Shown here piece after piece: positions 25,742 to 47,006 of a stretch of DNA of 64,000 nucleotides. The stretch is from NCBI GenBank assembly GCA_040752915.1, contig JBFMHB010000005.1, positions 1 to 64,000 on the forward strand. The letters run 5' to 3'. The DNA comes from Acidobacteriota bacterium. Lineage in GTDB: Bacteria; Acidobacteriota; UBA4820; DSQY01. Below the pieces are notes generated by a model. The model worked only from the letters and a program-made list of their open reading frames with translations, was not told where the DNA came from and made no database searches. Position 1 is the first letter of the stretch. Every line of letters starts with the position of its first letter. Position numbers and translations under genes: made by a program.

Positions 25742-26743
25742 CTAGGGGGCCGGGCAGGCGCCCGAAGCGATGGGGCGCGCTAGGAGGATGCCTTCGAGCC
25801 TCTCGTAGTATTCGTGGCGCAGATCGCTGTTGTCGCTGTCCTTGCAATAGTCCGTATCGCCGGAGTCGTAGCCGCAGGTGGAGCGCCCGGTCGTGAGCGT
25901 GTAGGCGCATCCGCTGGCGCTGGCCCAGCGGTACGCAACCGGGCGGCGGGTAGAATCGTAGCCGTACCACATCTTCCCTTTGCCCACGCCGTCGGACGCA
26001 GAGACGTCGTCGTAGGAGCTTCGTCTCGTGTCCTTGCCGTGTCCGCTCTCCGCCGAGTCAATGACGTAGATCCAGAATTCGTCCTGGTTTACCGTCGAGG
26101 CCACCGGAAAGGTCCAGGCCAGCATGACGTGGCCCGTGCTCTGGCTCCCGCAGGACTTGCCCTCCATGAAGGAGCGCCAGGCGTCCGAATAGCGCACGAC
26201 GAGGATGTCCCCCGGCTGGATCTTCTGGTGATCGGTGAAGACGTACCAGAGCGCGTTGCAGTTTTCCGAGCGGCCGGCCAGGATCTCCCGGAAGTAGTCG
26301 TAGAATCCCCAGGCCCGGGGGCGGAGGTCGGGGTCGTCGGGATCCGTTGGGTCCGGCGGATGAAGCCTCAGCGAATTGGCGAGGAGGTCCGCGTAGTGGA
26401 GGGGGGAGGCCGGCTCCAGCACGAACTCGCCCACGAATCCGGAACAGTCGTACTTGTAAATCCCGTCGTCCTCCGCCATGACCGATTGGGCGTGGTGGAC
26501 GTACTCGGTCTGGCGGAGATTCCCGAAAACGTAGGCCATCCGGTCGTACACGGCTCGCGCGGGCGTCCCGGCCGGAGGCCGGTGAACGCGGCTCCCGGGC
26601 AGGGCGGGCGCCGCCTCGGTTTCGCAGGACGTCGAGGAGACCTGGGCCCTGTCGCTTTCTTGGGATGCCTGGGCGCATACTCCCGCGCCGTGCGCCGCCA
26701 GGGCCCAAATCAACGATCCCGTCACGAACCACGAGTTGCGCAT
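25742..26743 (-). CDS. Exported NlpC/P60-like (papain-fold) protein
   Basis: 333 residues from MRNSWFVTGSLIW, which starts a signal peptide (cleavage near GVCAQA) and has GGGAGG upstream; the frame upstream is antisense of the next gene. A DCSGF motif (YKYDCSGFVGEF) with candidate catalytic Cys is followed after about 100 residues by GDILVVRYSD and then STGHVMLAW with candidate His, the order found in NlpC/P60 amidases. Insertions are larger than usual, so the match is by motif. It could hydrolyse peptidoglycan peptides or be a general exported amidase. Several Cys in the C-terminus suggest disulfides. Confidence 0.6.
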   Translation of the reverse strand: MRNSWFVTGSLIWALAAHGAGVCAQASQESDRAQVSSTSCETEAAPALPGSRVHRPPAGTPARAVYDRMAYVFGNLRQTEYVHHAQSVMAEDDGIYKYDCSGFVGEFVLEPASPLHYADLLANSLRLHPPDPTDPDDPDLRPRAWGFYDYFREILAGRSENCNALWYVFTDHQKIQPGDILVVRYSDAWRSFMEGKSCGSQSTGHVMLAWTFPVASTVNQDEFWIYVIDSAESGHGKDTRRSSYDDVSASDGVGKGKMWYGYDSTRRPVAYRWASASGCAYTLTTGRSTCGYDSGDTDYCKDSDNSDLRHEYYERLEGILLARPIASGACPAP

Positions 26744-26799
26744 GGGGGCTTGCCTCCCGCTCTCCATCAGAGTATGAGCGATGCGTATGTGGAGGCGCA

Positions 26800-27813
26800 T
26801 CACCATCCTACGACGATCTTGCCGAAGTGGCCGCCCCGCTCCATGAGGCGGAAGGCGTCGGGGGCCTCGTCGAAGGGGAAGAGGCGCCCGAGGACGGGGC
26901 GGAGGCCGGAGGCGGAGACGGCGCGGTTCATGCGGAGGAACATCTCGCGGCTGCCGACGAAGATGCCCCGAACGGTGACGCTCTTCATGAGGAGCCAGGT
27001 GACGGCGACGGGGGCGGAGGCGCCCGAGAGGACGCCGATCATGGAGACCTGGCCGCCAATGCGCGCGGCCTTGAGGGAGCGCTCGAAGGTGCCGGCGCCG
27101 CCCACCTCGATGACGTGGTCCACGCCTTCGCCCGACGTGGCCTTCAGGACGGCCTTGTCCCAGTCGGGGTCCCGGGCGTAGTTGAAGCCCGCCTCGGCGC
27201 CCAGCTCGAGGGCCCGGGCGATCTTCTCGTCGCTCCCCGAGGTGATCAGGACGCGGGCGCCCGCCGACTCGGCGAACTGGAGGGCGAAGACGGAGACGCC
27301 CCCGGTGCCGAGGACGAGGACCGTCTGGCCGGGCAGGAGAGGGCGGGGCCCCTCGAAGAGGGCGTTCCACGCGGTGAGGGCGGCGCAGGGGAGGCAGGCG
27401 GCCTCCTCGGGGGAGAGGTGGGGAGGCACGGGGACGCATCCACCCTCGGAGAGGAGGACGTACTGGGCGAGACAGCCGTCCAGGGGGCCTCCGAGGGTGG
27501 TCTTGCGGGCCTCCGCCGTGGGTTCGCCGGCGAGCCAGCCCTGGCAGAAGGTCCCCATGACGCGGTCTCCAGGGCGTACGGAAGCCACGTCCTCGCCCAC
27601 TTCCTCCACGACCCCGGCCCCGTCGGAGCAGGGGATGAGGGGGAGGGGCTGGCGGGGATTGTAGGAGCCCCTCACGGTCATGAGATCGCGGAAGTTCAGC
27701 GAGGCGGCCTGGAGGCGCACGAGAACCTGGCCCCGTCCCGGCCGGGGCGTCTCGCGCTCGGCGGCCTTGAGGTTTTCCAGCCCGAAGGAACCCTGGATTT
27801 CGAAGACCTTCAT
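26800..27813 (-). CDS. MDR-family NAD(P)-dependent alcohol dehydrogenase/quinone reductase
   Basis: 337 residues from the ATG with GGAGG upstream. GroES-like N-terminal half with LIPCSDGAGVVEEVGEDV, then a Rossmann fold with VLVLGTGGVSVFALQFA. The zinc-ligand GHE motif of classical alcohol dehydrogenases is not seen, so it is more likely a zinc-independent or quinone-type member. Substrate unknown. Last host gene before the prophage. Confidence 0.88.
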   Translation of the reverse strand: MKVFEIQGSFGLENLKAAERETPRPGRGQVLVRLQAASLNFRDLMTVRGSYNPRQPLPLIPCSDGAGVVEEVGEDVASVRPGDRVMGTFCQGWLAGEPTAEARKTTLGGPLDGCLAQYVLLSEGGCVPVPPHLSPEEAACLPCAALTAWNALFEGPRPLLPGQTVLVLGTGGVSVFALQFAESAGARVLITSGSDEKIARALELGAEAGFNYARDPDWDKAVLKATSGEGVDHVIEVGGAGTFERSLKAARIGGQVSMIGVLSGASAPVAVTWLLMKSVTVRGIFVGSREMFLRMNRAVSASGLRPVLGRLFPFDEAPDAFRLMERGGHFGKIVVGW

Positions 27814-29250: not shown

Positions 29251-29991
29251 ATGGCCGAGGTCGTGAAGGTTGGAGAGCGCGAGATCCTCCCCGTGGAGTA
29301 CCAGGGCCAGCGCGTGCTGACGCTGCGCCAGGTGGACGAGCTGCATGGGAAGCAAGACGACTCAGCAGGGCGGAGATTTCGGGCCCATCGTGATGAGTTT
29401 GTCTTTGGCGAAGACTACTTTGAAGTGCGCTACGACGAGTGGGCGAGCGCACCGGCACTTTCAAGTTTGGTTCGGACGGGAACGTTGGACCAAAGAGGCG
29501 GCCACCGGGGCCACCTCATCCTTCTCGCCGAAACGGGCTACCTCCTCCTGGTAAAGGTCTTCGACGACCCCATCGCCTGGCAGATCCAGCGGGGGCTCGT
29601 GTGCTGCTACTTCCGCGCGAAGGCGGCCCAGGACGACCCATTGACCCAAGCCCGGCTCACGCACGCCGAGGCGGAGCGTTACGCCAACGAGGGGATGCGG
29701 TTGACCCTGGCCCACCTCTTCGGAGACCGCTACAACCACCGCATCAAGACCCTCACAGAACTCGACCAGGTCCTCGTGGACGGGATGCAGATCCGGGGCC
29801 ACTGCGGCCCCGAGGTCCAGGCCCAGTGCGCGTACTGGGGCCTCTCCCAGGCCGGCCCCACGCGCTTCGACGCCATCGAGCGCGCCAAGTGGCGGCAGAG
29901 CGCCACGCCGGACGAGATCCACGCCGAGATCCAGTGGCTGCTGCGCGCCATCAAGAACCAGGCGAACCGCGGGATGATCCGCGTCCGCTAG
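29251..29991 (+). CDS. ORF6N-domain antirepressor-like protein
   Basis: 246 residues with GGGAGG before the ATG. Residues 12-60 match the ORF6N DNA-binding domain often found in phage antirepressors: LPVEYQGQRVLTLRQVDELH...FVFGEDYFEV. A central LILLAETGYLLLVKVFDDP and a helical C-terminal half follow, of no recognised family. Located between ner and the transposase, where regulators of the lysis-lysogeny switch sit. A second ORF6N protein is at 39815. Confidence 0.7.
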   Translation: MAEVVKVGEREILPVEYQGQRVLTLRQVDELHGKQDDSAGRRFRAHRDEFVFGEDYFEVRYDEWASAPALSSLVRTGTLDQRGGHRGHLILLAETGYLLLVKVFDDPIAWQIQRGLVCCYFRAKAAQDDPLTQARLTHAEAERYANEGMRLTLAHLFGDRYNHRIKTLTELDQVLVDGMQIRGHCGPEVQAQCAYWGLSQAGPTRFDAIERAKWRQSATPDEIHAEIQWLLRAIKNQANRGMIRVR

Positions 29992-30932: not shown

Positions 30933-33223
30933 GCCCGCGCCAGGGGTTTGTGAAAACGGCAAAACGAGCCTCTGAAACCCCCTCGTCAGAGGCTCGCTCC
31001 GGAATCTTCAGAGGCTCGCGAGCCTCTGAACGGAAGTGCCTGTGCGAAGAGGCACTTGCGCGGATGCGCGCCGAAGGGCCCGCCTGGGTGACTCTCTCCT
31101 TCGGAGGCTCGCTGGTTGGAATAACTGGACACGCACTCAAGTGCCGAATGCTCCGCGCCCGGAAAAAATCTACTGTAGATTTCACAACGCGGGTGGTCCG
31201 GGAGGGGAAAAAGCGGGTCCTCTACCTGGACGCATGGACTCTCCCCGAGCCAGGTCCCACCCGGTACGCTGTGTGGAGAACGAAGCAGTTGGTGGAGGCC
31301 GAACTGGGGCAAATGCCCCAGGAGCCCCCCCCCGTCTCGAAGCCCTCCGCGCCCCCCTGCGCGGAGGCCCCGCCCGCCGCCTCCTCCCCCCCGGGGGCGG
31401 CGGGCACCCCTTCCTTCTATAAAGAGGAAGGGACCGAAGCCGCCCCTCGTATCCTCACCTCTTCCCCCGGCGGGCCCCCGCCTACCCGCCGGGGGTCTTT
31501 TTCCAAGGGAGGCCCGAGCGAGACGGCCCTACGCTCCACGTGGGGGGACGTCCACCACGGGACGCGCCTCGATGCCCTCCACCGGCGCGACGCCGTGCTG
31601 GCGGTGCATCTCCTTCTGGCGCAGGGCCTGACCTTGACGGAGGCCCTCGACCAGACGTCCACGGCCCTCGGGCTGAGCCTGTGGACCCTACGGGCCTGGT
31701 GGCGGCGGGTGGAGGGTTTGCCCAAGGACCTCTGGCCCTCGGCCCTGGTGGGCCGCTACCAGGGCCGGACGGCCTTGGCCCCGGTGACGGAGGCGGCGTG
31801 GGAGTGGTTCAAGGCGGCCTACCTGGACCGCTCCCAGCCCGAATTCGCGGACATCTACCGCCGCGCGATGGACCTGGCCCCGGAGAGGGGCTGGAGGGTG
31901 CCCTCAGAGGCCGCCCTCCGCCGGCGTTTCCGCCAGCAGGTGGACCCGCTGGTCGCGACCTATCTCCGAGAGGGCTCCGAAGCCCTCCGGGCGCGCCTGC
32001 CCCAGGCGCGTGTGGACAAGACGGGGGTCCCTGCGGGCCAGGCCATGAGCCTCGACGGCCTGAAGCTCGACAGCCTATGGGTGCAGTTCCCCGGCGAAAC
32101 GCCCGCCACCAACGCCGCCGTGGCCCTGTGCGCCCGAGACATCCATTCGGGCCGGATCGTCGCGGGCCGGCTGGGCGAGACCGAGTGCACGGACCTCATC
32201 TGCGGGGCGGTCTACGACCTATTGGGCGTCTGTTGGCCGGAGACCCTCCAGATCGATAACACCCGGGCCATGGCGAACAAGTGCGTGACGGGCCAAAGCC
32301 CCCACCGCCACCGGTTCAAGAACAACCCCTGGACGGATCCCGTGGGCCTATTGGTGCTCTCGCAGATCTCCGTCTATTGGACCAACCCCGACACGGACCT
32401 TGCCTCCCCTGGACAGAAGCCCGTGGAGCGCTCATTCCGGGACCTCCACAAGATGGTCCGCCACAACCCGCGCTTCCACGGGCGAGGCTTCTCGACGGCC
32501 ACGGCCGTCCCCTCGTGGGAAGTGGAAGAGGTTCTCGCGGAGGAGATCGTCCGGTACAACGCCATTCCCCAGCGGCGGACCCAGGTCTGTGGGCGCCGCC
32601 TCTCCTACGACCAGGCGTGGGAGGCCAGCGTACAGCACGCCGGGCTCCGGCGGTGCCCCGAGGAAACACGGGACCTGTGGCGCCTGCGGTGCGAAGTGGC
32701 CACCATCAACCGCCGCACAGGCGAGATCGCCCTCCGGGCCGGGGTGGGGCCCCACGGAGCCAAGCCAAGGTACGCCCATGATCTGCTCTACCGTCTCCCC
32801 GGAGAGATGGTGACCGTGTGGTTCGATCCGGACCACCTCGACCGCCCCGTGCAGGTCCGGACCATGGACGGGGGCTTCCTGTGCGTGGCGGAGCCCTTGA
32901 GGAACCTGGGCTTCCAGAATACGGCCGACGCCCGCGTGTGGAAGCGGATGCGCCAGCAGAAGATCCGGGCGGTCCACGCGGCGGCCGATGCCCACGTGCG
33001 GATGGAGGCCCTCGGGCGAAAGGTCCGGGCCCTCCCCGGGGACGCCCCCCTCGCTCCCCGCTCCGCCCTGGCCCTCGTCCCGGCCACCCCGGGCGAGCCG
33101 CCGCCGAAGGCAACGCCCGACCTGACCGACGCCAACCAGGTCCGGATGTCCTTTCAAGAACGCATGGAAGCGCTGATGCCGCCCAGCATGCTGGAGCCGG
33201 CCTTTGGCGCCCGACCGGAATAG
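30929..33223 (+). CDS. Mu-type DDE transposase (MuA-like)
   Basis: 764 residues from GTG 30929 (GTGA overlap with the previous gene). Catalytic triad: Asp376 in AMSLDGLKLDS, Asp443 in LQIDNTRAM, Glu500 in KPVERSFRDLH; the spacings 67 and 57 match MuA. HTH-rich binding region about residues 215-330, C-terminal domain about 265 residues, as in MuA. Compared with MuA there are about 107 extra N-terminal residues, followed by a Pro-rich linker. The DNA for residues 12-190 is full of inverted repeats, including a terminator-shaped hairpin (31464-31500), so the true start is uncertain; ATGs at 31063, 31147 and 31312 are alternatives. Integrates and replicates the phage by transposition with the MuB-like ATPase that follows. 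Confidence 0.9.
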   Translation: MSPRQGFVKTAKRASETPSSEARSGIFRGSRASERKCLCEEALARMRAEGPAWVTLSFGGSLVGITGHALKCRMLRARKKSTVDFTTRVVREGKKRVLYLDAWTLPEPGPTRYAVWRTKQLVEAELGQMPQEPPPVSKPSAPPCAEAPPAASSPPGAAGTPSFYKEEGTEAAPRILTSSPGGPPPTRRGSFSKGGPSETALRSTWGDVHHGTRLDALHRRDAVLAVHLLLAQGLTLTEALDQTSTALGLSLWTLRAWWRRVEGLPKDLWPSALVGRYQGRTALAPVTEAAWEWFKAAYLDRSQPEFADIYRRAMDLAPERGWRVPSEAALRRRFRQQVDPLVATYLREGSEALRARLPQARVDKTGVPAGQAMSLDGLKLDSLWVQFPGETPATNAAVALCARDIHSGRIVAGRLGETECTDLICGAVYDLLGVCWPETLQIDNTRAMANKCVTGQSPHRHRFKNNPWTDPVGLLVLSQISVYWTNPDTDLASPGQKPVERSFRDLHKMVRHNPRFHGRGFSTATAVPSWEVEEVLAEEIVRYNAIPQRRTQVCGRRLSYDQAWEASVQHAGLRRCPEETRDLWRLRCEVATINRRTGEIALRAGVGPHGAKPRYAHDLLYRLPGEMVTVWFDPDHLDRPVQVRTMDGGFLCVAEPLRNLGFQNTADARVWKRMRQQKIRAVHAAADAHVRMEALGRKVRALPGDAPLAPRSALALVPATPGEPPPKATPDLTDANQVRMSFQERMEALMPPSMLEPAFGARPE
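30965..31029. repeat. Four copies of an 11-bp inverted motif, including a 22-bp palindrome
   Basis: TCAGAGGCTCG occurs at 30986-30996 and 31008-31018, and its inverse CGAGCCTCTGA at 30965-30975 and 31019-31029. The last two abut as a perfect 22-bp palindrome; the first two form an 11-bp stem with a 10-base loop. A one-mismatch copy lies at 31101-31111. This pattern suggests a protein-binding array or RNA hairpins just before the transposase core. Confidence 0.85.
31344..31504 (+). terminator. Four consecutive hairpins ending in an intrinsic-terminator-like element
   Basis: Stem 1: 31344-31352 with 31359-31367 (9 bp). Stem 2: 31373-31381 with 31396-31404 (9 bp). Stem 3: 31408-31416 with 31424-31432 (9 bp with one GU). 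Stem 4: CCCCCGGCGGG (31464-31474) with CCCGCCGGGGG (31485-31495), 11 bp, followed by TCTTTTT. It lies inside the transposase reading frame. Stem 4 has the full form of a rho-independent terminator, suggesting attenuation of the transposase or a later true start. Confidence 0.65.
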
Positions 33224-33232
33224 GAGGTGATC

Positions 33233-34198
33233 ATGACGCAGACGCAGAAGCAGGAGCTCAACGTGGTGGAACCCCTCGATGGAGAGGATCTCCGCCGGCG
33301 ATTCGCGGAGGAGGTAGCCGAGTCGGGCCTCTCCCAGGCGAAGATCGCCCGGGAGGTGGGCACCAATCCCTCGTACGTGAACCAGTACCTCAAAGATGGG
33401 ACTTGCGCCGGAGCTCGAGAGGAGTTCGAGGCGAAGGTCCTCCGGTGGGTCCGGACCCGGGAATCCCAGCGCGCGCTGGACCGGATCCTCCCCGGGGAGG
33501 ACGTGTTCTTCCCGACGCCCACCTCCAGGAGGGTGCTCGCGGCCCTCGCCTACGCCCAGGCAGGGCGGTCTATGGCCGTCGTGTACGGCGGGGCGGGGCT
33601 CGGGAAGTCCACGGCGGCGCGGCACTATGCGACGGCCGCGTCGTCCGTTTTCCTGGCCACCGTGAGCCCCACCAGCCGGAAGCCAGGAGGCCTCCTCAAG
33701 GTCCTCTGCCGCACCCTGGGCCTCAAGGCGAGCATCTGGCCCACGGACATGGAGCGCTCCGTGGTAGAGCGGCTCGCCGGCACGCGGGGCCTGCTCATCG
33801 TGGACGAGGCCCAGCACCTCACCGTCGAGTCCCTGGAGACCCTGCGGGCCATCCACGACGCCGCCGGCATCGGCCTGGCCCTCCTCGGGAACGAGCGCGT
33901 CTACACGCAGATGGTCGGGACCCGAACGGCCGAATTCGCCCAGCTGTTCAGCCGGTTGGGCCACCGCGTGAAGCTTGTGAACCAGACCGCGGGCCCCGAC
34001 GCCGAGGCGCTCCTCGACGCATGGGTGGCCCCTGTAGACGCGCCGGCCCGCACGCGCCTCCTGGGCATCGCCGCCAAGGACGGCGGGCTCAGGCAACTGA
34101 TGCAGACCCTGAAGATGGCGACCATCGCGGCGGGCGGTGAACGGGTCACCGCCTCGCACGTGTCGGGAGCCTTCGCAGATCTCGGAGGTGACGAATGA
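33233..34198 (+). CDS. MuB-like AAA+ ATPase, target DNA activator
   Basis: 321 residues from the ATG after AGGAGGTG. N-terminal HTH (about residues 30-60: SQAKIAREVGTNPSYVNQYL), then an AAA+ domain with Walker A YGGAGLGKSTAA and Walker B LLIVDEAQHL, and a sensor-like LGNERVY. Length and order (HTH-AAA-C-terminal helical domain) match MuB. It binds target DNA and delivers it to the transposase; 9 bp separate the two genes. Its TGA overlaps the next ATG. Confidence 0.92.
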   Translation: MTQTQKQELNVVEPLDGEDLRRRFAEEVAESGLSQAKIAREVGTNPSYVNQYLKDGTCAGAREEFEAKVLRWVRTRESQRALDRILPGEDVFFPTPTSRRVLAALAYAQAGRSMAVVYGGAGLGKSTAARHYATAASSVFLATVSPTSRKPGGLLKVLCRTLGLKASIWPTDMERSVVERLAGTRGLLIVDEAQHLTVESLETLRAIHDAAGIGLALLGNERVYTQMVGTRTAEFAQLFSRLGHRVKLVNQTAGPDAEALLDAWVAPVDAPARTRLLGIAAKDGGLRQLMQTLKMATIAAGGERVTASHVSGAFADLGGDE

Positions 34199-34554
34199 AG
34201 AAGATTCTCGCGGTGCTTCTCGCGGCGGCGCTCCTGGCGCTGGCCGCCCTTCCGGCCCTGGGCGCGATCCCCAACCGCTATCTCGGGGACCGGGCCAAGC
34301 CCTTCTCGGTCACGGCCTCGGACGTCGCGGCGACGGTGACCCTCCCCGTGGGCAAGCAGGGCGTCTTCCTCGTGGTAACCAACGACGGGACCGAGGACGT
34401 CTACCTCGCCCTCAACCTGGCGGCCACCACCACAGACGGGTTCGTGCTCAAGCCCAATGAGGAGGTCCAGGTCCCCGTGGCCCTCACGAGCCTCGGATAC
34501 GTCTGCGCGGCCACGAAGACCACCGTGCTGCGCGGCTGGATCCTCTACTACTAA
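34195..34554 (+). CDS. Exported small beta-rich protein (early cassette 1)
   Basis: 119 residues, ATGA overlap with the MuB-like gene, so surely translated with it. A clear signal peptide (KKILAVLLAAALLALAALP, cleavage after LGA) precedes about 95 residues of alternating hydrophobic strands, ending in a Trp/Tyr-rich tail. No family recognised. First of four exported proteins in a row at a place where Mu has small cytoplasmic early proteins. Confidence 0.75.
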   Translation: MKKILAVLLAAALLALAALPALGAIPNRYLGDRAKPFSVTASDVAATVTLPVGKQGVFLVVTNDGTEDVYLALNLAATTTDGFVLKPNEEVQVPVALTSLGYVCAATKTTVLRGWILYY

Positions 34555-34564
34555 GGAGGCCTGG

Positions 34565-35566
34565 ATGAAGCGGATTTTCCTCAGCCTGGCCCTTCTGCTC
34601 GCGACAGCGGTGCCGACCCTCGCCGGCTTCGGGTCGCTGGCCCGCCCCACCCGTCCCGTGACGGACCTCCGCTGCACCAAAGACGGCGCGGACGTGGTCC
34701 TGACCTGGACCACTACCCCCGCGAGCGCCTACCGGTACGTCGTGTGCCGCGGCGTGCTCCAGCCCAAGTTCAGGGCAGAGAAAGTCGTGGCCGTCCTGCC
34801 TCTCGGCAGCACGGGATGGCGGGACTACGGCGCCATCACCCGCACGGTCCTGGGCGTGGCGGTGAACGAGTTCTACCGCGTCTATGCCCTACCCGGGGAG
34901 GCCCCGGCCCCCGGATTCTCCCGCAAGCTCAAAACCGTCCGGCACGAGTATCGAGAAAGGCCCCGGGACCGCAGCCAGGTGCTGCGAATGGACGTGTCGA
35001 ACGGCTCCCAGTTCAACTTGGACCCCCGCGCCGAGGTCATCGGACGCGACAACGGGTGGCAGATGCCGGGCTCCCGGTCCTCCTCCTCGACCTTCCTCTA
35101 CGACCTGGAGAACTTCCCCACACCCGGGGGCGCCGTGGGCCGCGAGGTCTGGCTCTCCGGCCAGCCGGACGAAGCCAAACCCAACACCTGGCTCCACTCG
35201 GGCTACTACGCGGGGGTCACCCACACCCCCGCCGGGGGGGACGAAACGGTCACCGCCTCCACCGCCAGAGAACTGTCGGCGCCGGCCGTGAGCCGGGACG
35301 GGAATGTCGCCACCGTCACGATCACCGCGCCCCCGCAGGACACGGCCGGGGCCGTACAGGGCATCCAATGGTACCGCTCGTACCTGGGCGTGGCCGACGC
35401 CGAAACCATGACCCTCCTCGCCACCCACCCGCCCACCACCCTGGAGATCCAGGACGACATCACCGCCGTCCCCGCCAACTGGTACGTCTTCTACTTCTAC
35501 CGCCTCGTCTACAAATCCGGCCTGTCGGACTTTTCCAAGTCCTCCACCTCGCCCCTGCGGCGTTGA
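34565..35566 (+). CDS. Exported protein with fibronectin III-like domains (early cassette 2)
   Basis: 333 residues from the ATG after AAGGAGG. Signal peptide RIFLSLALLLATAVPTLAG. Residues about 25-110 look like a fibronectin type III domain (PTRPVTDLRC...VVLTWTTTPASAYRYVV), and about 230-325 like a second (LSAPAVSRDGNVATVTITAP...YFYRLVYKSG). The middle is Ser/Pro/Asn-rich. Predicted periplasmic or cell-surface. Homology not recognised beyond the fold pattern. Confidence 0.75.
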   Translation: MKRIFLSLALLLATAVPTLAGFGSLARPTRPVTDLRCTKDGADVVLTWTTTPASAYRYVVCRGVLQPKFRAEKVVAVLPLGSTGWRDYGAITRTVLGVAVNEFYRVYALPGEAPAPGFSRKLKTVRHEYRERPRDRSQVLRMDVSNGSQFNLDPRAEVIGRDNGWQMPGSRSSSSTFLYDLENFPTPGGAVGREVWLSGQPDEAKPNTWLHSGYYAGVTHTPAGGDETVTASTARELSAPAVSRDGNVATVTITAPPQDTAGAVQGIQWYRSYLGVADAETMTLLATHPPTTLEIQDDITAVPANWYVFYFYRLVYKSGLSDFSKSSTSPLRR

Positions 35567-35577
35567 AAAGGGAGCCC

Positions 35578-36240
35578 ATGCGCAAAGTGCTCTGGTACAT
35601 CGAACAGTGGACGCCCGTGGTGGCAATCGTCCTGGCGATCCTGGCCACGATCGCCGTCTCCTGGGCCCACCTGCTGGCGGCCGATCCGCCGGTCAAGATG
35701 GCCTGGACCATGGATCCGGCCTTCTTCCCCCTGCGGGCCGCGACCCTCACGGCCTACCCCGTGGCGGCCAGCGACTTCGAGGTGCCCGTCCGGTGTGCCT
35801 ACCTCGGGGACCTCGACACCTACGTTTGGCAGTTCAAGGCCCACGTTCCCGAGGCGTTGAAGACGGGCGACTGGATTCTCTACGGCCAGGGCCCCGGGGG
35901 CCTCACCGTCTGCCAGCACATCTGGCTGGCACCCGGGACCACCGGGGCGCTGGCGCCCGTCACCTGGGAGCAGGGCGAGGTCTGGAACGTCGGGGACGGC
36001 GCCACCACGACCTTCCCCAAGCCCGCCATCGAGGAATCCCTCGTCGCCCGATGGGAGATCCTTGTGGACGGAAAGCCTGTCGCCCCCGACGCCGGCGGCC
36101 TCATGCCTCCCATGGCCGGCGCCCGCACCGTACAGCTTCGGGCCGTCCTCGCGGGATCGCCCCTCCACCACGAGCTCCTCGGCCCCATGCTCCGGCTCGA
36201 GTTCGCCGAGGGCCGCGACACCCAGAAGGACCGCACATGA
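35578..36240 (+). CDS. Membrane-anchored protein (early cassette 3)
   Basis: 220 residues, AAAGGGAG before the ATG. One N-terminal hydrophobic helix (VVAIVLAILATIAVSWAHLL) would serve as a signal anchor; the remaining 180 residues are soluble, beta-rich, with two Cys (VRCAYLG, LTVCQH). No recognised family. Stop overlaps the next ATG (ATGA). Confidence 0.7.
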   Translation: MRKVLWYIEQWTPVVAIVLAILATIAVSWAHLLAADPPVKMAWTMDPAFFPLRAATLTAYPVAASDFEVPVRCAYLGDLDTYVWQFKAHVPEALKTGDWILYGQGPGGLTVCQHIWLAPGTTGALAPVTWEQGEVWNVGDGATTTFPKPAIEESLVARWEILVDGKPVAPDAGGLMPPMAGARTVQLRAVLAGSPLHHELLGPMLRLEFAEGRDTQKDRT

Positions 36241-36932
36241 GAAAAGCCCTCCTTCTCCTGTTCATGGCCGCCCTGGCGCTCCCCGCGCTGGGGCAGCCCA
36301 TGCCCTGCACCGTCGGGGGCTCGGCCCGCCTCGAGGTCTTGGGCCCCGAGGACCCCACCAACCTCTGGCAGCAGGCGGGCTACGTGTCCTTCTGGCTCTC
36401 GTCCGACGCCACCGTCGCCGTGGGCGGAAGCCAGGGGGCCCTCCATTACGCCAACGGGCACTTCTCCTCGTGCCTCTCCGGGGTCGCGAACACCTCCTGG
36501 CCCGGGGGCGTCTGCCCCGACGAAGGGGCGGAAATCGTGGGGGCCGTCCTCTACTGGTCCGACGAGAACACCCTCGACCAGCGGGCCTTCTTCGCCGTCG
36601 GCACCCTCCTCGCCTCCGCCAGTGTGGCCGAGGGCACCTGCACCATGCGCGAAGTCCCAGAGCCCACCGCCACGGTGGACGCGGGGATTGTCACCCTCAC
36701 CTGGTCCGCCCCGCCGGAGGCGGCCGCAGGCCTGGTCACCGGCTACCAACTCCAGCGCTCCGCCGACGGGATCTCCTTCGCCAACGTCGGCTCCGTCGTA
36801 ACGGCCCCCACCACGACGGACACGCCGGGTCCCGGCACCTGGCACTACGCCTTGAAGCTCCGCTTCAAGGGCACCGGATACGACCGAATGACCCCCAAGC
36901 GCGGCCATGCCGTGCAGGTGGTGGTGCCGTGA
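36237..36932 (+). CDS. Exported protein with C-terminal fibronectin III-like domain (early cassette 4)
   Basis: 231 residues with a signal peptide (KALLLLFMAALALPALG). The N-terminal half contains four Cys (CTVGG, SSCLSG, GVCPDE, EGTCTM) likely in disulfides; the C-terminal 85 residues fit fibronectin III (IVTLTWSAPPEAAAGLVTGY). Overlaps both neighbours by 4 bp. Unknown role; surface modification or superinfection exclusion are possible inferences. Confidence 0.72.
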   Translation: MRKALLLLFMAALALPALGQPMPCTVGGSARLEVLGPEDPTNLWQQAGYVSFWLSSDATVAVGGSQGALHYANGHFSSCLSGVANTSWPGGVCPDEGAEIVGAVLYWSDENTLDQRAFFAVGTLLASASVAEGTCTMREVPEPTATVDAGIVTLTWSAPPEAAAGLVTGYQLQRSADGISFANVGSVVTAPTTTDTPGPGTWHYALKLRFKGTGYDRMTPKRGHAVQVVVP

Positions 36933-37246
36933 GCGGGCGTCTCCACCTCGTGGAATCCCGGACCGGGGAGGGGGCCATGCCCCCTCCCCCCGCGGCCGTC
37001 TTCGCCGAGGTCGAAGCCTCCTTCCGCCTCGAGGCCGACGAGGCCCTGCGGATCTTCGTTTCCTATCGGAACCTCCTGTCCGAAGAAATGCTCCAGGGCT
37101 CCGTCCACGAGGACACCCTCAAGCAGACGAGTCTCGCCCTGCAATTGGCGGGCGAGAGATTCCGGGAGTGGGCCCGCGCCTTCGCCGCCCTCCAAAGGGC
37201 CGACGGCCGCTGGGCGCCACGCCCCCAGGGAGAGACGGGCGCATGA
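36929..37246 (+). CDS. Small helical early protein
   Basis: 105 residues from GTG 36929, coupled by GTGA to the gene before and by ATGA to the one after. Predominantly alpha-helical (VFAEVEASFRLEADEALRIF, LKQTSLALQLAGERFREWAR). No signal peptide, no family recognised. Confidence 0.65.
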   Translation: MSGRLHLVESRTGEGAMPPPPAAVFAEVEASFRLEADEALRIFVSYRNLLSEEMLQGSVHEDTLKQTSLALQLAGERFREWARAFAALQRADGRWAPRPQGETGA

Positions 37247-37479
37247 CGTACAGCGACGAACACCTCGACCACTACGGGGAGCGCTTCACTGCGATGGGCC
37301 TGTCCCGCACGGGCCTGACCTTCGAACGCTACCTTACCAACCCCCGGCACTACGAGGGCCTCCTCGTCACCGCCCTGCGGGCGGCGCCCGTATTGAAACC
37401 GGGCCTCCCGGCCCTCGCCGGCTGTTGCCCCGAGGGGGGCGCAAACCTCCTTCCCTTCGTCTCCGGAGTCCGGACGTGA
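37243..37479 (+). CDS. Small early protein of unknown function
   Basis: 78 residues, ATGA start and GTGA end overlaps. Contains ERFTAMGLSRTGLTFERYLT, helical, and a short tail with a Cys pair (AGCCPEGG). No family recognised; the tight coupling supports that it is real. Confidence 0.6.
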   Translation: MTYSDEHLDHYGERFTAMGLSRTGLTFERYLTNPRHYEGLLVTALRAAPVLKPGLPALAGCCPEGGANLLPFVSGVRT

Positions 37480-38009
37480 GCGGGGCCCTCGCCTTGTCCG
37501 ACATCGAGCGCATGGCGGAGGCCTATGCTGCCGCCTGCGAGGACCTGAGACGGGACCTTGACGTACTCGAAGGGGCCATCCGCCAGGCCAAGCGGGCCAT
37601 GGTCCCCAATCTCCTGCGGCGGGCCGCCGTGGCCGCCGGCGCCAAGGCAACCCTGCGCAAGGCCGTCGAAGAAAACCCATCCCTCTTCAGCAAGCCCCGG
37701 ACCCGCGTGGCCCACGGGGTGCAGGTGGGGTACCGGAAGGCCAAGGGCAAGCTGGCGATCGAGGACGAAACCCTGACCCTCAAGCTCATCCGGAAGCACT
37801 TCGCCGACCAGGCCGACGTCCTCATCGAGACCACCGAAAAGCCCGTAAAATCGGCCCTCAACCAGCTCCCTGCGGCGGACCTCAAGCGTTTGGCCGTCAC
37901 CGTGCTGGAGGCCGGCGACGAGGTCGTCGTCAAGGTCCTCGAGGGCGAAGTCGAGAAGCTCGTGGACGCATTCCTCCACGAGGCCGACGCCCTGGGCCCG
38001 GGGGGCTGA
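37476..38009 (+). CDS. Gam-like host-nuclease inhibitor
   Basis: 177 residues from GTG 37476. A long N-terminal helix (IERMAEAYAAACEDLRRDLD) is followed by VGYRKAKGKLAIEDETLTLK and KPVKSALNQLPAADLKRLAV. Size, helical N-terminus and position in the early operon resemble Mu Gam, which binds double-stranded DNA ends and blocks host exonucleases; this is by pattern, not by a diagnostic motif. Confidence 0.5.
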   Translation: MSGALALSDIERMAEAYAAACEDLRRDLDVLEGAIRQAKRAMVPNLLRRAAVAAGAKATLRKAVEENPSLFSKPRTRVAHGVQVGYRKAKGKLAIEDETLTLKLIRKHFADQADVLIETTEKPVKSALNQLPAADLKRLAVTVLEAGDEVVVKVLEGEVEKLVDAFLHEADALGPGG

Positions 38010-38010
38010 G

Positions 38011-38247
38011 ATGCTGAAGGCGGCGCGCCTCCGGACGAGCGAGCGGCTGCAGCGGGTGGACGACCTCCTCTCCGACGGCCACGAATACTCCACCCTGGAG
38101 ATCGCCCTGAGCGCGCGCGTGTGCGCCGTCAACTCCTGCATCGCCGAACTGCGCGCCAACGGGCGGTCCATCCGCTGCCGCCGCGTGGGCGACCTTTGGT
38201 ATTACCGGCGGGTGGACGTGACCCCCCGCCTCTTCCGGAACCGGTAG
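38011..38247 (+). CDS. Small winged-helix-like protein
   Basis: 78 residues, starting one base after the Gam-like stop. ERLQRVDDLLSDGHEYSTLE followed by CIAELRANGRSIRCRRVGD and a terminal WYYRR wing suggests a helix-turn-helix/winged-helix fold as in replication-initiation or phage regulatory proteins. Function unknown. Confidence 0.65.
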   Translation: MLKAARLRTSERLQRVDDLLSDGHEYSTLEIALSARVCAVNSCIAELRANGRSIRCRRVGDLWYYRRVDVTPRLFRNR

Positions 38248-38256
38248 GAGAGCCCC

Positions 38257-38712
38257 ATGACCGCCCCCGCCAAACCCCGCCGCACCCTGGATTCCAGAAC
38301 CCGGGAGATCATGTGGATTCATATGGCCAAGGCCCACTTCGGGTGGGACGACGATCTCTACCGCGACGTCCTCGAGGACGTGGGCGGGGCCCGATCCGCC
38401 AAGGACCTCACGCCCCTCGGCCGCGCCCGCGTCCTGAAGCACATCGAGCGCCTCGGCTGGCGCCCCAGGCGAAAGCCCCGGCGCTTTCAGAAGGGCCCCC
38501 GCCCCGACTCCTCCCGCGCGCGCTACCTCGCCAAGATCGATGCCATGCTCTACGAGGCCGGCCGGGAGCGGGCGTACGCCGTCGGGATTCTCAAGCAGAT
38601 GTTCGGGGCGGGCGCGCCCGACCGCCTCGAATGGGCCGAGCCCGCCCAGCTCCACAAGCTCGTCGCCGCCCTCGTCTACGACCAGCGGCGCCGGAAGGGA
38701 GGCCGCCGGTGA
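38257..38712 (+). CDS. GemA-like regulatory protein (Mu gp16, DUF1018)
   Basis: 151 residues with AGGAGAG upstream. IMWIHMAKAHFGWDDDLYRD and ARSAKDLTPLGRARVLKHIE fit the DUF1018/GemA family of Mu-like phages; the C-terminal LEWAEPAQLHKLVAALVYDQ is also typical. GemA modulates host gene expression and DNA topology in Mu. Ends by GTGA overlap with the Mor-like gene, the arrangement seen in Mu-like phages. Confidence 0.85.
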   Translation: MTAPAKPRRTLDSRTREIMWIHMAKAHFGWDDDLYRDVLEDVGGARSAKDLTPLGRARVLKHIERLGWRPRRKPRRFQKGPRPDSSRARYLAKIDAMLYEAGRERAYAVGILKQMFGAGAPDRLEWAEPAQLHKLVAALVYDQRRRKGGRR

Positions 38713-39548: not shown

Positions 39549-39818
39549 ATGGAACAGACCCCGGCAGAAACCGATCCATCCCCCAGCCCCGCCCTGAGTG
39601 ATTCATTCCTGGACATGACCTCGCACCTGGAGCGCGCCCGCGCGGTGCTCTCCCACATCCTCGAATCGCTCCCCAACGCGGGCGACCCGCGCGAAAAGGC
39701 CTTTGCCGAGATGGGCCACTGCGCCTGGCTCATCACCGCCGCCGAAGAACTGCTGGACCTGGCGTCCCAAGACGCCGGGCGTTTTGAAGCCGAGCTGTTA
39801 GGAGGAGGTGCCCGATGA
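39549..39818 (+). CDS. Small helical phage protein
   Basis: 89 residues, CAGAGGAGG upstream of the ATG. Helical (HLERARAVLSHILESLPNAG, EMGHCAWLITAAEELLDLAS). No family. Coupled to the ORF6N gene by ATGA. Confidence 0.65.
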   Translation: MEQTPAETDPSPSPALSDSFLDMTSHLERARAVLSHILESLPNAGDPREKAFAEMGHCAWLITAAEELLDLASQDAGRFEAELLGGGAR

Positions 39819-40606
39819 CCACGAACGCCTTAGCGATACCCGAGGAAGTGTTGAGCGCCATCCACCACATCGAGGGCCTGCCGGACTTCATGCTGGCGTC
39901 CGAGGCCGCCGACCTTTACGGGGTCGCGCCCAAGCGAGTGACAGAAGCCGTAAGGAGAAACCCGGACAGGTTCCCCGCGGACTTCGTCTTCCGGCTCACA
40001 AAATCCGATGTGGAGAAATTGCGGTCGCAAAATGCGGCCGCAATTTCAAGGATGGCCCGGATCGAGCCCTTAGCCTTCACCCACGAGGGGATGAACGCCC
40101 TCTCTGGCGTGCTCAAATCCTCCATCGCCGCCGCGCGGTCGGTCCAGATCAACCGGGGGTTCAGCGAAATGGAGCGCCGCATCCAAGCCGGGGCCGGGCT
40201 GCCCTCCGGCGCCCCCGTGCTCCCAGATGCCCTCACCCCGGACCAGTTTGACCGGCTCCTTCAGGCGAAGGTGGTCCTCACGGGGGCCGAGTACCTGGCG
40301 CTCAAGCGCCCGCCCAGGCGCAGGTTGGCCCTTGTGCCACCCTCTCCCGCGCAGGCCGCGGCGGTCCGGAAGCAGGTGGAGATTGGCGATACTCTGATGC
40401 CGGGGCTGTTCGGTTCGCCGGAGAAGGGCATCATCGACCTGGCGCGGATCCGCCACCCGAGGCCCCTGACCCGCCGCGAGAAGCGCGAGATCAAGGCCGC
40501 CCTGGCCGAGACCCCGCGCCCCACCCACGCGGCCATCGCCCGCCGCGTCGGGCGCCCGCGCCGCACCGTGGACCGCTACATCGAAACCCTCCAGGGACGC
40601 GTGTAG
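39815..40606 (+). CDS. ORF6N-domain DNA-binding protein with C-terminal HTH
   Basis: 263 residues. Residues 25-110 are an ORF6N domain (MLASEAADLYGVAPKRVTEA...FPADFVFRLTKSDVEKLRSQ...AFTHEGMNALSGVL). The C-terminal 60 residues hold an HTH: RREKREIKAALAETPRPTHA, AIARRVGRPRRTVDRYIETL. Two DNA-binding parts point to a regulator or antirepressor. Last gene of the plus-strand early operon, followed by a strong terminator. Confidence 0.75.
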   Translation: MTTNALAIPEEVLSAIHHIEGLPDFMLASEAADLYGVAPKRVTEAVRRNPDRFPADFVFRLTKSDVEKLRSQNAAAISRMARIEPLAFTHEGMNALSGVLKSSIAAARSVQINRGFSEMERRIQAGAGLPSGAPVLPDALTPDQFDRLLQAKVVLTGAEYLALKRPPRRRLALVPPSPAQAAAVRKQVEIGDTLMPGLFGSPEKGIIDLARIRHPRPLTRREKREIKAALAETPRPTHAAIARRVGRPRRTVDRYIETLQGRV

Positions 40607-40817: not shown

Positions 40818-42047
40818 CTACCGGGCGCCGCTTTCCCCTTCAGCCTGGGGCCTGATGAGCGCGCCACGCTTCATCATGCGGCGCACCTCGGAGGCGTCCG
40901 CCATGTGCAGCGTGGTGAGGTAGAGCTTGCCGCGCTGCTCGTCGGTCTTGACGGCCGCCTTCCAGACCTTGCCGTTCCGGTCCAGGAGAAAGACCAGGTT
41001 CCGGTCGCGGTCGGCGATCACCATTCCCCGCTCCAAGACCTCGGGCAGGATCTGGCGGTAAGCGTCCGCGTCCAGTTCGGGGTGGCGCCCCGCCTGCTTG
41101 TCCATGGTCGCCTTCGAGAGCCGCACCACCTGAGTCTTGGCGTCCAGCTTTCCCTGGACCTCCTTGTCCACGACGCCGCCGGGGATCTCGCCCTGGCCGT
41201 CCTTCAGCCACTCGTCGAGGATGGGGCTGGCCATGACCTGGCGCACGGAGGCGCGGGCGAGAGCCGTGCCGGCGGCGGCGGTCTTATCGGTGAGGGCGGT
41301 GCGCAGCAGGGCCTGCCGGTCCTTCCCCGGGTTGCGCGCCCACGCGGGGTCGAGGCCCTGGTCCACCGTCTCGACGACGCCGGTCCGCTTGTTAACCCAC
41401 TCCCTGGGATGCTCGGCGGGCGCCTCCGTCCGGGTGCCCTCCCGGCCCGAGAGCCGGGCGTGCTCCGAGGGGCCCACCTGGCGCACCCAGCACTTGCAGC
41501 CCCAGCCGTTCGGGGGCATGTGGGTCTCCCACCAGGGGTCATCCGCGCGTAGGAGGGTACCGCTCCAGGCCACGTGCTCGGGCCGGTGGTGGAGGCTCGG
41601 GCCGAGCTGGTAGAGCAGGTAGGGCAGGGCGTCCTTCGTGCGCTGGATGCGGTCCCACTGCCCCGCGGCGTAGGCGGCGCGTGTGTTGGCGTCGAAAATC
41701 GTCCGCAGGCGGCGGGGGGAGCCGAGGCGGGCCGTCACGCTCTCGCCCGTCTTTGGGTCCACGGCCTCCTTCGTGCCCCACCAACCCTTCTTCTGGAGCA
41801 CTGGGGCGAGGTCCTTCTTGAACTGCTGGAAGGTCTGGCCCTTCGCGAGGGCCGAGTCCAGGGCGCCCCGGATGTCATCCAGGATGTCGAGCTGCATGGC
41901 CTTGGCGACCGTGAAGGCGCTGGCGTGCTCCTCGCCCCAGACGTCCTGGTAGGAGAATCCGGGGCGCAGGTCCTTGCCCCGGAGGTAGTCGAGGGCGCCC
42001 TGCGGAACCGGGCCTCGGAACGCATAGCCGGGCCGTGGCTGGGCCAA
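40818..42047 (-). CDS. Mu F-like minor head protein with C-terminal nuclease-like domain
   Basis: 409 residues. The start is a TTG (42047) with GGGAGG upstream. The N-terminal 250 residues fit the SPP1 gp7/Mu F head morphogenesis family (DDIRGALDSALAKGQTFQQF; RTIFDANTRAAYAAGQWDRI; HVAWSGTLLRADDPWWETHM; PPNGWGCKCWVRQ). The C-terminal part (LPEVLERGMVIADRDRNLVF...) resembles the barnase/EndoU/colicin-like domain often fused to these proteins. Last gene of the minus-strand late operon, next to the portal as in Mu. Confidence 0.85.
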   Translation of the reverse strand: MAQPRPGYAFRGPVPQGALDYLRGKDLRPGFSYQDVWGEEHASAFTVAKAMQLDILDDIRGALDSALAKGQTFQQFKKDLAPVLQKKGWWGTKEAVDPKTGESVTARLGSPRRLRTIFDANTRAAYAAGQWDRIQRTKDALPYLLYQLGPSLHHRPEHVAWSGTLLRADDPWWETHMPPNGWGCKCWVRQVGPSEHARLSGREGTRTEAPAEHPREWVNKRTGVVETVDQGLDPAWARNPGKDRQALLRTALTDKTAAAGTALARASVRQVMASPILDEWLKDGQGEIPGGVVDKEVQGKLDAKTQVVRLSKATMDKQAGRHPELDADAYRQILPEVLERGMVIADRDRNLVFLLDRNGKVWKAAVKTDEQRGKLYLTTLHMADASEVRRMMKRGALIRPQAEGESGAR

Positions 42048-42057
42048 AGGGGCCTCC

Positions 42058-43614
42058 CTAGGGGTTCGGGCCGGGGTCCCCGAGCGCGCGCGCCTTAAAG
42101 GCCTTCAGCGCGAGGGATCGGACGAGGCCCGCCGTGTCCATCGTGTCGAGGAGCCCGGGGAGCTTCGCGAGAAACTCGGCTTCCGTGGCGCAGGCATCGG
42201 CGAGCGCCTGAATGGGGTCCACGACCGGGGCCAGAATGGGCTCCCAGTCGTCGGGGGGCTCCAAGAGCGCGTCCAGCTCGTCCTGGTCCGGAGAGGGGGT
42301 CCCCTCCGGCCCCCCGGCCTGGTTCCGCGCCTTGGCCGGTGCGGCGTGTCGGTTCGCGGCGGCCGCCGGCGCGCCCAAGATCTCCGCGTCCCCCTTCTTC
42401 GGCGGATCCGGCAGGCCCAACTTGTCCCGCACGACGGAGGCCTCCACCCGCAGGCCCAGGGGCACGAGCTTGGCGAGGGCGTCGGCCAGGGCCCCGATGT
42501 CCTCGGGGTCCTTCACGAAGACCTGCGCGGAAGGGTAGCGCGCCTGGGGACCCCAGTTCAGATCCACGAAGGGCTTGACCAGGTAGCGGTTGATCGTGTT
42601 GCCGAGGGCCTTGGCGTCGGCCCTCTTGATGTCCTGCCGCACCTCCTCCTGGCTGGCCTCGTTGCCGAGCTTCCCGGGTGTGCCTTCGGTGGATGCCGTC
42701 TGCCCGAGCACGGCCTTGCTCGTCTGTTTGTCGAGCCACTCGGCGAGGGCCTGGAAGAGATCGCCGCTGGAGTTGCCCTTCATGGCGTCCTGGAACTCGA
42801 TCCTCATGCTGTCGGGCAGGATCGCGGCGGCGTCCATCCCCAGGTTGGCGACGGCCGTGCGCAGGACCTTCAGATCCTCCGCCGTGGCACTGGGGCCGTA
42901 GCGCCCGATCCGCAGGGGCATGCCGTATACCTCGGCGAAGGCGAGCCAGTCCGTGAGGTCGTAGCTCTTGCACATGTACGTCACGGCGGCCAGGCGGGCC
43001 AACCCCCCGCGCAGGGGGATCCCGGTCTTGAGCCGGGGGAAGTGGACGACGAACTTGAAGGGCGGCAGGGGGATGCCGTAGACCGTGTCCGTCTCGTCCA
43101 AGAGCCGGACCTGTCGGCCGCTCTCGCGGTCGAAGACGAAGAACCGCGGGTCCCGCCACTCGTAATCCCGGGGCCACCACTGTTTTCCGGACGTGTCCCA
43201 GAAAATCTCGCAGACCGAGTACCCTTTTCCGATCCCGTCCAGGAGGTCGTCCACCAGTTCCCCGAACTCGGGCCGGCGCGTCAGCTCGCGGACGGCGTCG
43301 GCGATCTCGGCGTCGCGGCCTTCGTCGCTCGCCGCCTCCACCATGACCGGGAGGCCCGAAACGGCCCGTTTCCGTGTGCCCAGGACCGATGCGTAGTGGG
43401 GCTCCCGCTCCTCCATCTCTTCGGCCAGCGTAAGGTATTCGTGGGCGTCGCCGTCAGCGGCCGCCCGCAGGATCCTCGCCAGGCGCTCCGGAGTGAGCCC
43501 CCCCCCGACGGGATTGTGCCACGGGGTGCGGACCCCCACGAGGGTGGGGGCGGCGATCTCCCGTTTCAGATCCTCCGTGCGGACCGGCTGTCCCCAGGCG
43601 TCGTAGAGCGTCAT
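42058..43614 (-). CDS. Portal protein (Mu gp29, DUF935)
   Basis: 518 residues, close to Mu gp29. DUF935-typical segments: LAEEMEEREPHYASVLGTRK, DDLLDGIGKGYSVCEIFW, WLAFAEVYGMPLRIGRYGP and TEGTPGKLGNEASQEEVRQD. Forms the dodecameric DNA channel at the capsid vertex. ATGA overlap with the terminase gene. Confidence 0.93.
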   Translation of the reverse strand: MTLYDAWGQPVRTEDLKREIAAPTLVGVRTPWHNPVGGGLTPERLARILRAAADGDAHEYLTLAEEMEEREPHYASVLGTRKRAVSGLPVMVEAASDEGRDAEIADAVRELTRRPEFGELVDDLLDGIGKGYSVCEIFWDTSGKQWWPRDYEWRDPRFFVFDRESGRQVRLLDETDTVYGIPLPPFKFVVHFPRLKTGIPLRGGLARLAAVTYMCKSYDLTDWLAFAEVYGMPLRIGRYGPSATAEDLKVLRTAVANLGMDAAAILPDSMRIEFQDAMKGNSSGDLFQALAEWLDKQTSKAVLGQTASTEGTPGKLGNEASQEEVRQDIKRADAKALGNTINRYLVKPFVDLNWGPQARYPSAQVFVKDPEDIGALADALAKLVPLGLRVEASVVRDKLGLPDPPKKGDAEILGAPAAAANRHAAPAKARNQAGGPEGTPSPDQDELDALLEPPDDWEPILAPVVDPIQALADACATEAEFLAKLPGLLDTMDTAGLVRSLALKAFKARALGDPGPNP

Positions 43615-45116
43615 CCGAACAGTCCTCCATGGGCCTTGAATCCGGCCGTCACGCGCACCGCGCGCTCCGCGCGGTCCCCATCCTCCCCGCGCCGCACCGT
43701 TACGGGCTCATACCCGAACAGCTCCGGGCCGTCTTGACGGGAGGCCCAGTACCCGAGAAGGAGGGCCATGCCCGCGTCGCCGTGCCTTTTGAGCCCACGT
43801 TCGTCGGCCTGCCGGGCGTCCGGCAGGCGGGGTACGCCGTTGACGACCTTGAACGCGCGCAAGTCCTTATGGACGTCGGCGTCACGGGGCACGATGATGG
43901 TGCCGTCCTCGAAGGCCGCCTTGAACGGCGCCGTGTTCTCGGCATACCAGGAGGGGGACAGCCACACCTCACGAATCCGCGCACCGTACCGGAGGGCGGC
44001 CACCTCGGCGATGTATTGCCCGTTCCCTCGGGCGTCCACCGCCCCCGCCACGAACTGGGGCAACCGGTCGGCCATGTAGAAGAGGGCCCGCTCCTGCTGG
44101 CGAAAAGGCATGTTGCGGAGCTCGACGAGGAACGGGAATCTGCGGGTCATGTCCTGCTGGATCTGCCAGGGGGCGAAGACCGACAGGTCCCCGGTCCTCC
44201 CAAAGTCCCACCCGAAGCCGCTCGTGCGCTTGGGGTCGAGTGCCGCCAGCAGGGGGGCGACGTCGCCCTGGAGCCAATCGTCCACGGCCGCCTGCCTCTC
44301 CGCTTCGGAGACCGCGAGGAAGTTTTCCGGGGCGGACCACCGCAACACCGGCAGGTCCTGCATCCGCGCTTCGATGAGGTGTCCGGGCAGCCATGAGCCC
44401 TCGCTGTGCCGAGGGACGCAGAACAGCTCTTCCTGGGCGTCGTCCCCGTAGAACTCGATCAGCTCGCGCCGCCACGCCTCCTCGGCATCCGGACTCCAGG
44501 GCCGCCCCTGGACGAGGCAGATGCGCTTGTAGAGCCCGGCCGCCAGGGCGTCGTCCAGGGTGACGCGGTGGATGCTGTACGGCTTCCTCTTCGCTCGGAC
44601 GTCCGTGACGAGGGCGTTGAAGGGGTTGTCCACCCCGTTGTGCGTGGACAGGACGTGCACCTGACCGCCCCACATCAACATGGCCAGCGCCGCCTTGAGG
44701 AGCGCCGAGAGATTGTCGTGGAACGCCGCCTCGTCGAGGACGATCCGGCCCTGCTTGCCGCGCAGGTTGGAGGGGCGGCTGGAGAGGGCGGTCACCCGGA
44801 AGCCCGAGGGGTAGTGGATGCGAAAGGCCTGAATGTCGCGGCCTTCGTCCTCGATGACGATCTCCTCCATCGCGGAGGCGGCGAGCTGGTAGTGGCGCGA
44901 CCAGTCCGCGCCGTCGCGGATGAATTCTTGGGCCATGTCCCGGTTGTAGCCCACGTACCAGGTGTCCATCCCCTTGGAGGAGGCGGCGAGGAGGGCGCAG
45001 TCCGCGGCCTCGCACCAGGAGAGCCCGATGCGGCGGCTCTTTTCGATCACCTTCACCGGCGATGGATCCTGGCACCACGCTCTTTGGTAGGGGAGAAGAG
45101 CAAACGGGACCGTCAT
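43611..45116 (-). CDS. Terminase large subunit (Mu gp28-like)
   Basis: 501 residues; DNA-packaging motor with ATPase and nuclease parts. Adenine/Walker A-like region VKVIEKSRRIGLSWCEA, Walker B GRIVLDEAAFHD, followed by HVLSTHNG coupling motif. The C-terminal RNase H-like nuclease begins with FGWDFGRTGDLSVFA and ends near RHGDAGMALLLGYWA. Order gp27-gp28-gp29-F is Mu-like but here on the minus strand. Confidence 0.92.
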   Translation of the reverse strand: MTVPFALLPYQRAWCQDPSPVKVIEKSRRIGLSWCEAADCALLAASSKGMDTWYVGYNRDMAQEFIRDGADWSRHYQLAASAMEEIVIEDEGRDIQAFRIHYPSGFRVTALSSRPSNLRGKQGRIVLDEAAFHDNLSALLKAALAMLMWGGQVHVLSTHNGVDNPFNALVTDVRAKRKPYSIHRVTLDDALAAGLYKRICLVQGRPWSPDAEEAWRRELIEFYGDDAQEELFCVPRHSEGSWLPGHLIEARMQDLPVLRWSAPENFLAVSEAERQAAVDDWLQGDVAPLLAALDPKRTSGFGWDFGRTGDLSVFAPWQIQQDMTRRFPFLVELRNMPFRQQERALFYMADRLPQFVAGAVDARGNGQYIAEVAALRYGARIREVWLSPSWYAENTAPFKAAFEDGTIIVPRDADVHKDLRAFKVVNGVPRLPDARQADERGLKRHGDAGMALLLGYWASRQDGPELFGYEPVTVRRGEDGDRAERAVRVTAGFKAHGGLFG

Positions 45117-45652: not shown

Positions 45653-45656
45653 GGCC

Positions 45657-46927: not shown

Positions 46928-47006
46928 GAGACGCCCCTGAATAAGGGGCCGCTGTTTTCGACGCGCGGGCACAGCGGCCGAAGCCCGCACCGGAAAGGAG
47001 AGCCGC

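Follow-up and report, generated by a model that had tools for sequence, protein, structure and literature searches.

In bacteriophage Mu, the semi-essential early region between B and gam, with kil, gam and their neighbours, encodes small cytoplasmic proteins. Exported phage proteins that change the bacterial envelope are usually described as single genes. Llp-type exclusion proteins of phage T5 are made early and stop adsorption both to infected cells and to lysed fragments (PMC9586334). They may be regarded as the closest functional precedent for the locus described here, which belongs to a prophage of the window, that is, the whole stretch of 64,000 nucleotides that was analysed. The likeness would consist in a phage-encoded exported protein, made early (as predicted for the window phage), by which the receptor is blocked and the progeny spared. 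However, T5 Llp is a single small lipoprotein of the outer membrane and has a lipobox, whereas the cassette of the window phage is multi-gene and encodes larger beta-rich proteins with no lipobox.

Three further comparisons are useful. The cassette occupies the same place as the Mu semi-essential early region, as the initial annotation had correctly noted, but its products are predicted to be exported and in other phages it is found elsewhere. Tail fibre and receptor-binding proteins resemble it in the fibre-like stretches seen in some members from related prophages, but the cassette proteins begin with signal peptides, and the four window proteins show similarity neither to tail-fibre families nor to the tail proteins of their own phage. 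Finally, a domain related to the FN3-like domains of the cassette occurs in large secreted proteins of Acidobacteria, whereas the phage proteins are short, stand alone and are encoded in prophages.

Four genes between MuB and Gam

The window is part of contig C5 of a 3.07-Mb genome. The prophage starts near 28.4 kb and may be incomplete, because the contig stops at 65,782. It is Mu-like, with MuA and MuB followed by Gam and GemA (phrog_310, phrog_296, phrog_491 and GemA PF06252). Portal, minor head protein and terminase (phrog_113, phrog_220, phrog_2) are encoded on the minus strand, and protease, major head protein, sheath and tape measure on the plus strand; the contractile-tail sheath gene, which matches phrog_23, assigns the phage to the sheathed tail type. 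The late genes therefore lie on two strands, as seen in the region 40818-45694, where terminase, portal and minor head genes oppose those for protease, capsid and tail, whereas Mu has a single late direction. Anti-repressor-like genes are present on both sides of the early region (29251-29991 and 39815-40606; phrog_4608, phrog_4792). Near the terminase block, the only PHROG match of the gene at 46334-46990 is phrog_1128, annotated as enoyl-CoA hydratase/carnithine racemase-like, a label that is doubtful.

The gene for MuB, the target-DNA activator ATPase (33233..34198; phrog_296, E 2.8e-72; Phage-MuB_C, E 5e-12), is followed by four genes on the same plus strand, here called P1 to P4. P1 (34195..34554; 119 aa) is predicted, from the signal rule described below and from a homologue in genome G007, to consist of a cleavable signal peptide and a small beta domain. 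P2 (34565..35566; 333 aa) has a cleavable signal peptide and an FN3-like domain at each end, P3 (35578..36240; 220 aa) has a signal anchor or signal peptide and a beta-rich domain, and P4 (36237..36932; 231 aa) has a cleavable signal peptide, a novel N-terminal part and a C-terminal FN3-like domain. The next early gene (36929..37246, plus strand) looks cytoplasmic from its sequence and has no family match above cut-off in Pfam or PHROGs, and the interval ends with a Mu Gam-like gene on the same strand (37476..38009; phrog_491, E 1.6e-9; Phage_Mu_Gam, E 4.6e-7). The 4-bp overlaps reported previously, between the MuB stop and the P1 start and between P3 and P4, are real, and a third one joins P4 to the next gene (36929-36932), so that the cassette is tied into the operon at either end. 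A scan of positions 33000-38500 for sigma-70-like promoters found none, and the four terminator-like sites in the same interval all lie within MuB, a number not far above the shuffled expectation.

The initial annotation had described four consecutive exported proteins, three with a cleavable signal peptide and one with a signal anchor. A hand-made rule (a positive n-region and a hydrophobic core of 8-12 residues) flagged exactly P1-P4 among the 36 window phage genes checked, a set that leaves out two further listed genes with no clean translation; with random placement among the 36, four flagged genes would be adjacent with a probability of 33/58,905, about 6e-4. As a control, the rule was applied, with any start codon allowed, to the first 3.5 kb after MuB in 14 Mu-like contigs from IMG/VR; 2 of the 95 ORFs there passed, which indicates that exported proteins in this position are unusual. 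The signal peptides of P1, P2 and P4 are textbook cleavable ones, as had been claimed. The hydrophobic stretch of P3 (about residues 13-33) is ambiguous between an anchor and an uncleaved signal: its low-confidence structure model shows a helix at residues 2-33 with strands after it, and its homologues in genomes G001 and G002 have ordinary cleavable signal peptides. No cysteine is present at the cleavage site of P1-P4, and the lipobox model LPAM_1 scores 12.9 on P1 against a cut-off of 20. Export signals are kept in homologues that are 24-50% identical and belong to several phages. Predicted N-terminal export signals on all four proteins, conserved in the homologues, are thus well supported, with P3 perhaps anchored.

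Searches of P1-P4 against Pfam, PHROGs and PDB sequences gave nothing above chance or cut-off, and tblastn against INPHARED found nothing. No relatives were found in IMG/VR with single-protein scans (P1, P2), two-row alignment scans (P2, P3, P4) or a four-row scan (P3). PADLOC models did not match P1-P4 up to E 0.1. With Pfam and PHROGs no enzyme-family match was obtained for the cassette proteins scanned, nor any match to hydrolases, holins or spanins, and in PHROGs none of the four matched a tail-fibre family. Structure models were poor (pLDDT 39.5 for P2 and 55.4 for P3), and the Ig-like matches that the fold search with P3 returned all fell short of significance (best E 0.027, TM about 0.2) and were not used as evidence. 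A decoy copy of the phages' own tail proteins was also considered: among the ORFs of five phages no tail protein resembles the cassette, and the idea of a simple decoy copy for receptor binding is therefore not supported.

P2 and P4 have a C-terminal domain in common, and the N-terminus of P2 matches an FN3-like family found in G001, G002 and a second prophage of the window's own genome (G000:C3), the signal peptide being part of the match. A domain like that shared by P2 and P4 recurs in large host proteins beside secreted-type P-domain, CBM96 and TIG domains; weak single-domain matches to such proteins were counted as domain sharing and not as cassette relatives. Of the earlier claim that two of the proteins carry fibronectin III-like domains, the shared and recurring domain stood up, but neither P2 nor P4 matches Pfam fn3 above the curated cut-off, and for this reason FN3-like denotes only a resemblance, an indirect one drawn through the host proteins.

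Cassettes in other prophages of the host family

A search of the whole genomes of relatives identified P2 in G007, from the same host family, and in a scan of the genome contig collection the G007 locus was the sole match. On that contig lies a Mu-like prophage of a second kind, in which the four genes all recur in unchanged order, 24% (P1), 50% (P2), 44% (P3) and 35% (P4) identical to those of the window. The ATGA overlap between P3 and P4 is kept, and the P1 homologue has a matching position and the NDGT motif; it is also similar to the C-terminal end of the protein that comes first in the G001 cassette (37%, E 9e-8). However, the G007 cassette does not adjoin MuB: it lies about 16 kb downstream of it, in the late operon, between a tail-terminator-like gene (13825-14286, labelled from position, with no PHROG match) and a group including a phrog_669 endolysin and an Rz-like spanin, and no more than about a dozen bases separate it from either direct neighbour. 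The G007 virion has an Ig-type tail tube, and a sheath was not detected. Small lipoprotein-like genes stand just upstream of the terminase genes in G007 (C58:22662-22961) and in G001 (C60:14831-15148).

A P3 profile search revealed two more members, in G001 and G002, and the four-row profile places P3 in four genomes (the window's, G007, G001 and G002) out of 396 in the phylum, in prophages only; P3 is the signature family of the cassette. In G001, four consecutive genes that are exported by the rule occupy the late slot of a Mu-like prophage. The first encodes a 239-aa protein that ends in a P1-like domain and matches phrog_511 and phrog_752, both virion families; the others encode a 431-aa protein, an FN3-like protein of 201 aa and the P3 homologue. 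G002 is a non-Mu prophage whose terminase has distant matches to podovirus-like phages; its cassette, again of four consecutive genes exported by the rule, lies between capsid and tail genes, structural labels that come mostly from order and size, the only PHROG structural match being at 26657-27382. In G000:C3, a second Mu-like prophage of the window's own genome, the late slot contains three cassette genes. They encode a 780-aa protein and an FN3-like protein, both exported, and an anchored protein that is probably related to P3 (hhalign probability 58%, E 1e-4). A stretch of the 780-aa protein weakly resembles a "tail fiber protein" of the Burkholderia phage BcepSauron (E 0.03, 50% over 41 aa), and weak matches to the virion-protein family phrog_511 occur among the relatives' cassette members. 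Some members from G001, G002 and G000:C3 look tail-fibre-like, a likeness that is otherwise read from sequence motifs. A further Mu-like match, in G039, showed no such cassette within the stretch read.

In all, such sets were found in five phages, which come from four genomes of a single host family, with four consecutive exported genes in four of the five and three genes on C3. Homology searching, as had been proposed, thus yielded cassette relatives in four other phages, although no known family emerged for P1-P4 and no significant fold for P3. The proposed survey for the cassette next to MuB had a different outcome, since the related cassettes were found in the late slot or among structural genes instead: in four of the five phages the genes stand among late or virion genes, and the early operon of the window phage is the exception. 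In G007, G001 and G000:C3 the cassette is followed by lysis genes, which are remote from it in the window phage and in G002. The three related Mu-like prophages each encode an exported protein, RlpA-like as judged by eye, in their early region (L029:7998-8462, G001:C60:13483-14109 and G000:C3:61085-61528), so exported proteins in early regions are not confined to the window phage.

The phage proteins were compared all against all at a threshold of E<1e-8. At this threshold the window and G007 phages share the cassette only; MuB, at about 2e-8, just misses it, and part of a Mu-like core can therefore be recognised at weaker E values. G002 has the cassette genes alone in common with the other phages. 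The G007, G001 and G000:C3 phages are related along their length, commonly at 45-85% identity, but their cassettes differ: G007 has one similar to the window's, and the cassettes of G001 and G000:C3 are similar to one another and to that of G002. The G000:C3 prophage itself (36420-68209) is Mu-like, unlike the window's and related over its full length to those of G001 and G007. Since the cassette alone is common to phages that are otherwise different, it behaves as a horizontally exchanged slot. The carriers are a sheathed phage (window), one with no sheath detected (G007) and one with a podovirus-like terminase (G002), and the sequence comparison indicates that the cassette passes horizontally between phages of different virion type within one bacterial family.

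Possible roles of the cassette

We propose, with a probability of about 0.4, that this is an exchangeable phage cassette whose exported beta-rich binding proteins work on the host envelope in the course of the lytic cycle, in masking or exclusion. As for localisation and purpose, which we infer, P1-P4 would leave the cytoplasm via Sec; P3 would stay at the inner membrane and the others would reach the periplasm or the cell surface. There they might bind host surface structures and mask receptors, and infected cells and lysis debris would no longer adsorb phage, which would amount to superinfection exclusion or lytic conversion. Expression of the cassette would begin with the lytic cycle in the window phage, where it was inserted between MuB and Gam, and would come late in the other phages, in which it neighbours lysis or virion genes. 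Conserved export signals, conserved gene order, a phage-borne P3 family in one host family and exchange between phages with almost nothing else in common are what the sequence itself shows. A cassette that moves between virion types and occurs in early as well as late positions is more easily reconciled with a host target than with a part of the virion, and the FN3-like domain shared with host proteins that carry secreted-type domains, together with the absence of PADLOC and enzyme matches, also speaks for action at the envelope. Against it stand the absence of a lipobox, unlike T5 Llp, and the fibre-like members, weak virion-family matches and structural-gene setting in four of the five phages, which would fit virion parts. 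Surface alteration or exclusion, as initially suggested, may still be considered the leading idea at this strength. Predicted export to the envelope agrees with it, but its timing early in infection does not generalise, because the other four cassettes lie among late genes.

The second of the two main readings is that the products are exported virion appendages, fibre or decoration proteins with signal peptides that would accumulate in the periplasm and become part of the particles once lysis has opened the inner membrane. The 780-aa protein of G000:C3, with its signal peptide, tail-fibre-like stretches and weak likeness to BcepSauron, would suit such a role, as would the virion-family matches of the first G001 protein and a late slot that adjoins the tail terminator or separates capsid from tail genes. 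We nevertheless hold it to be somewhat unlikely, given that the cassette moves among contractile, non-contractile and podovirus-like phages, that in the window it sits in the early operon away from the late genes, and that an established tailed-phage precedent was not found in the open-access literature.

The juxtaposition with lysis genes in G007, G001 and G000:C3 would agree with a set of lysis accessory proteins that weaken or span the envelope, but this role appears very improbable: the window phage and G002 have the cassette at a distance from those genes, matches to hydrolases, holins or spanins were not obtained, and lysis factors expressed early would do harm. Lysogenic conversion, in which the lysogen would produce adhesins for its surface or colonisation factors that benefit the bacterium, draws on the type of domain shared with large host proteins; yet overlaps bind the cassette at both ends, to MuB and to the gene that follows, and no sigma-70-like promoter was found (the one promoter type scanned), so that expression should follow the repressed lytic operon, and we consider conversion quite unlikely. 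That the export signals are incidental, namely hydrophobic N-termini of cytoplasmic proteins, is suggested by the hand-made nature of the rule, but they persist across families as little as 24% identical and the control count is low, so this explanation can hardly be maintained.

Envelope masking and virion appendages may also be joined in a broader reading, which we regard as unlikely: a kit traded within one Acidobacteria family, of Sec-exported fibre-like proteins that would assemble outside the cytoplasm and serve either as a surface shield or as appendages acquired at lysis. We found no account of such a cassette in the open-access literature. If this broader reading were true, neither the type of virion nor the timing of transcription would matter to the kit. 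The cassette would represent a portable host-interaction module, a conserved set of three to four exported genes that is exchanged among phages whose particles are unrelated and is placed in early or late operons, in Acidobacteria, a phylum whose phages are little studied.
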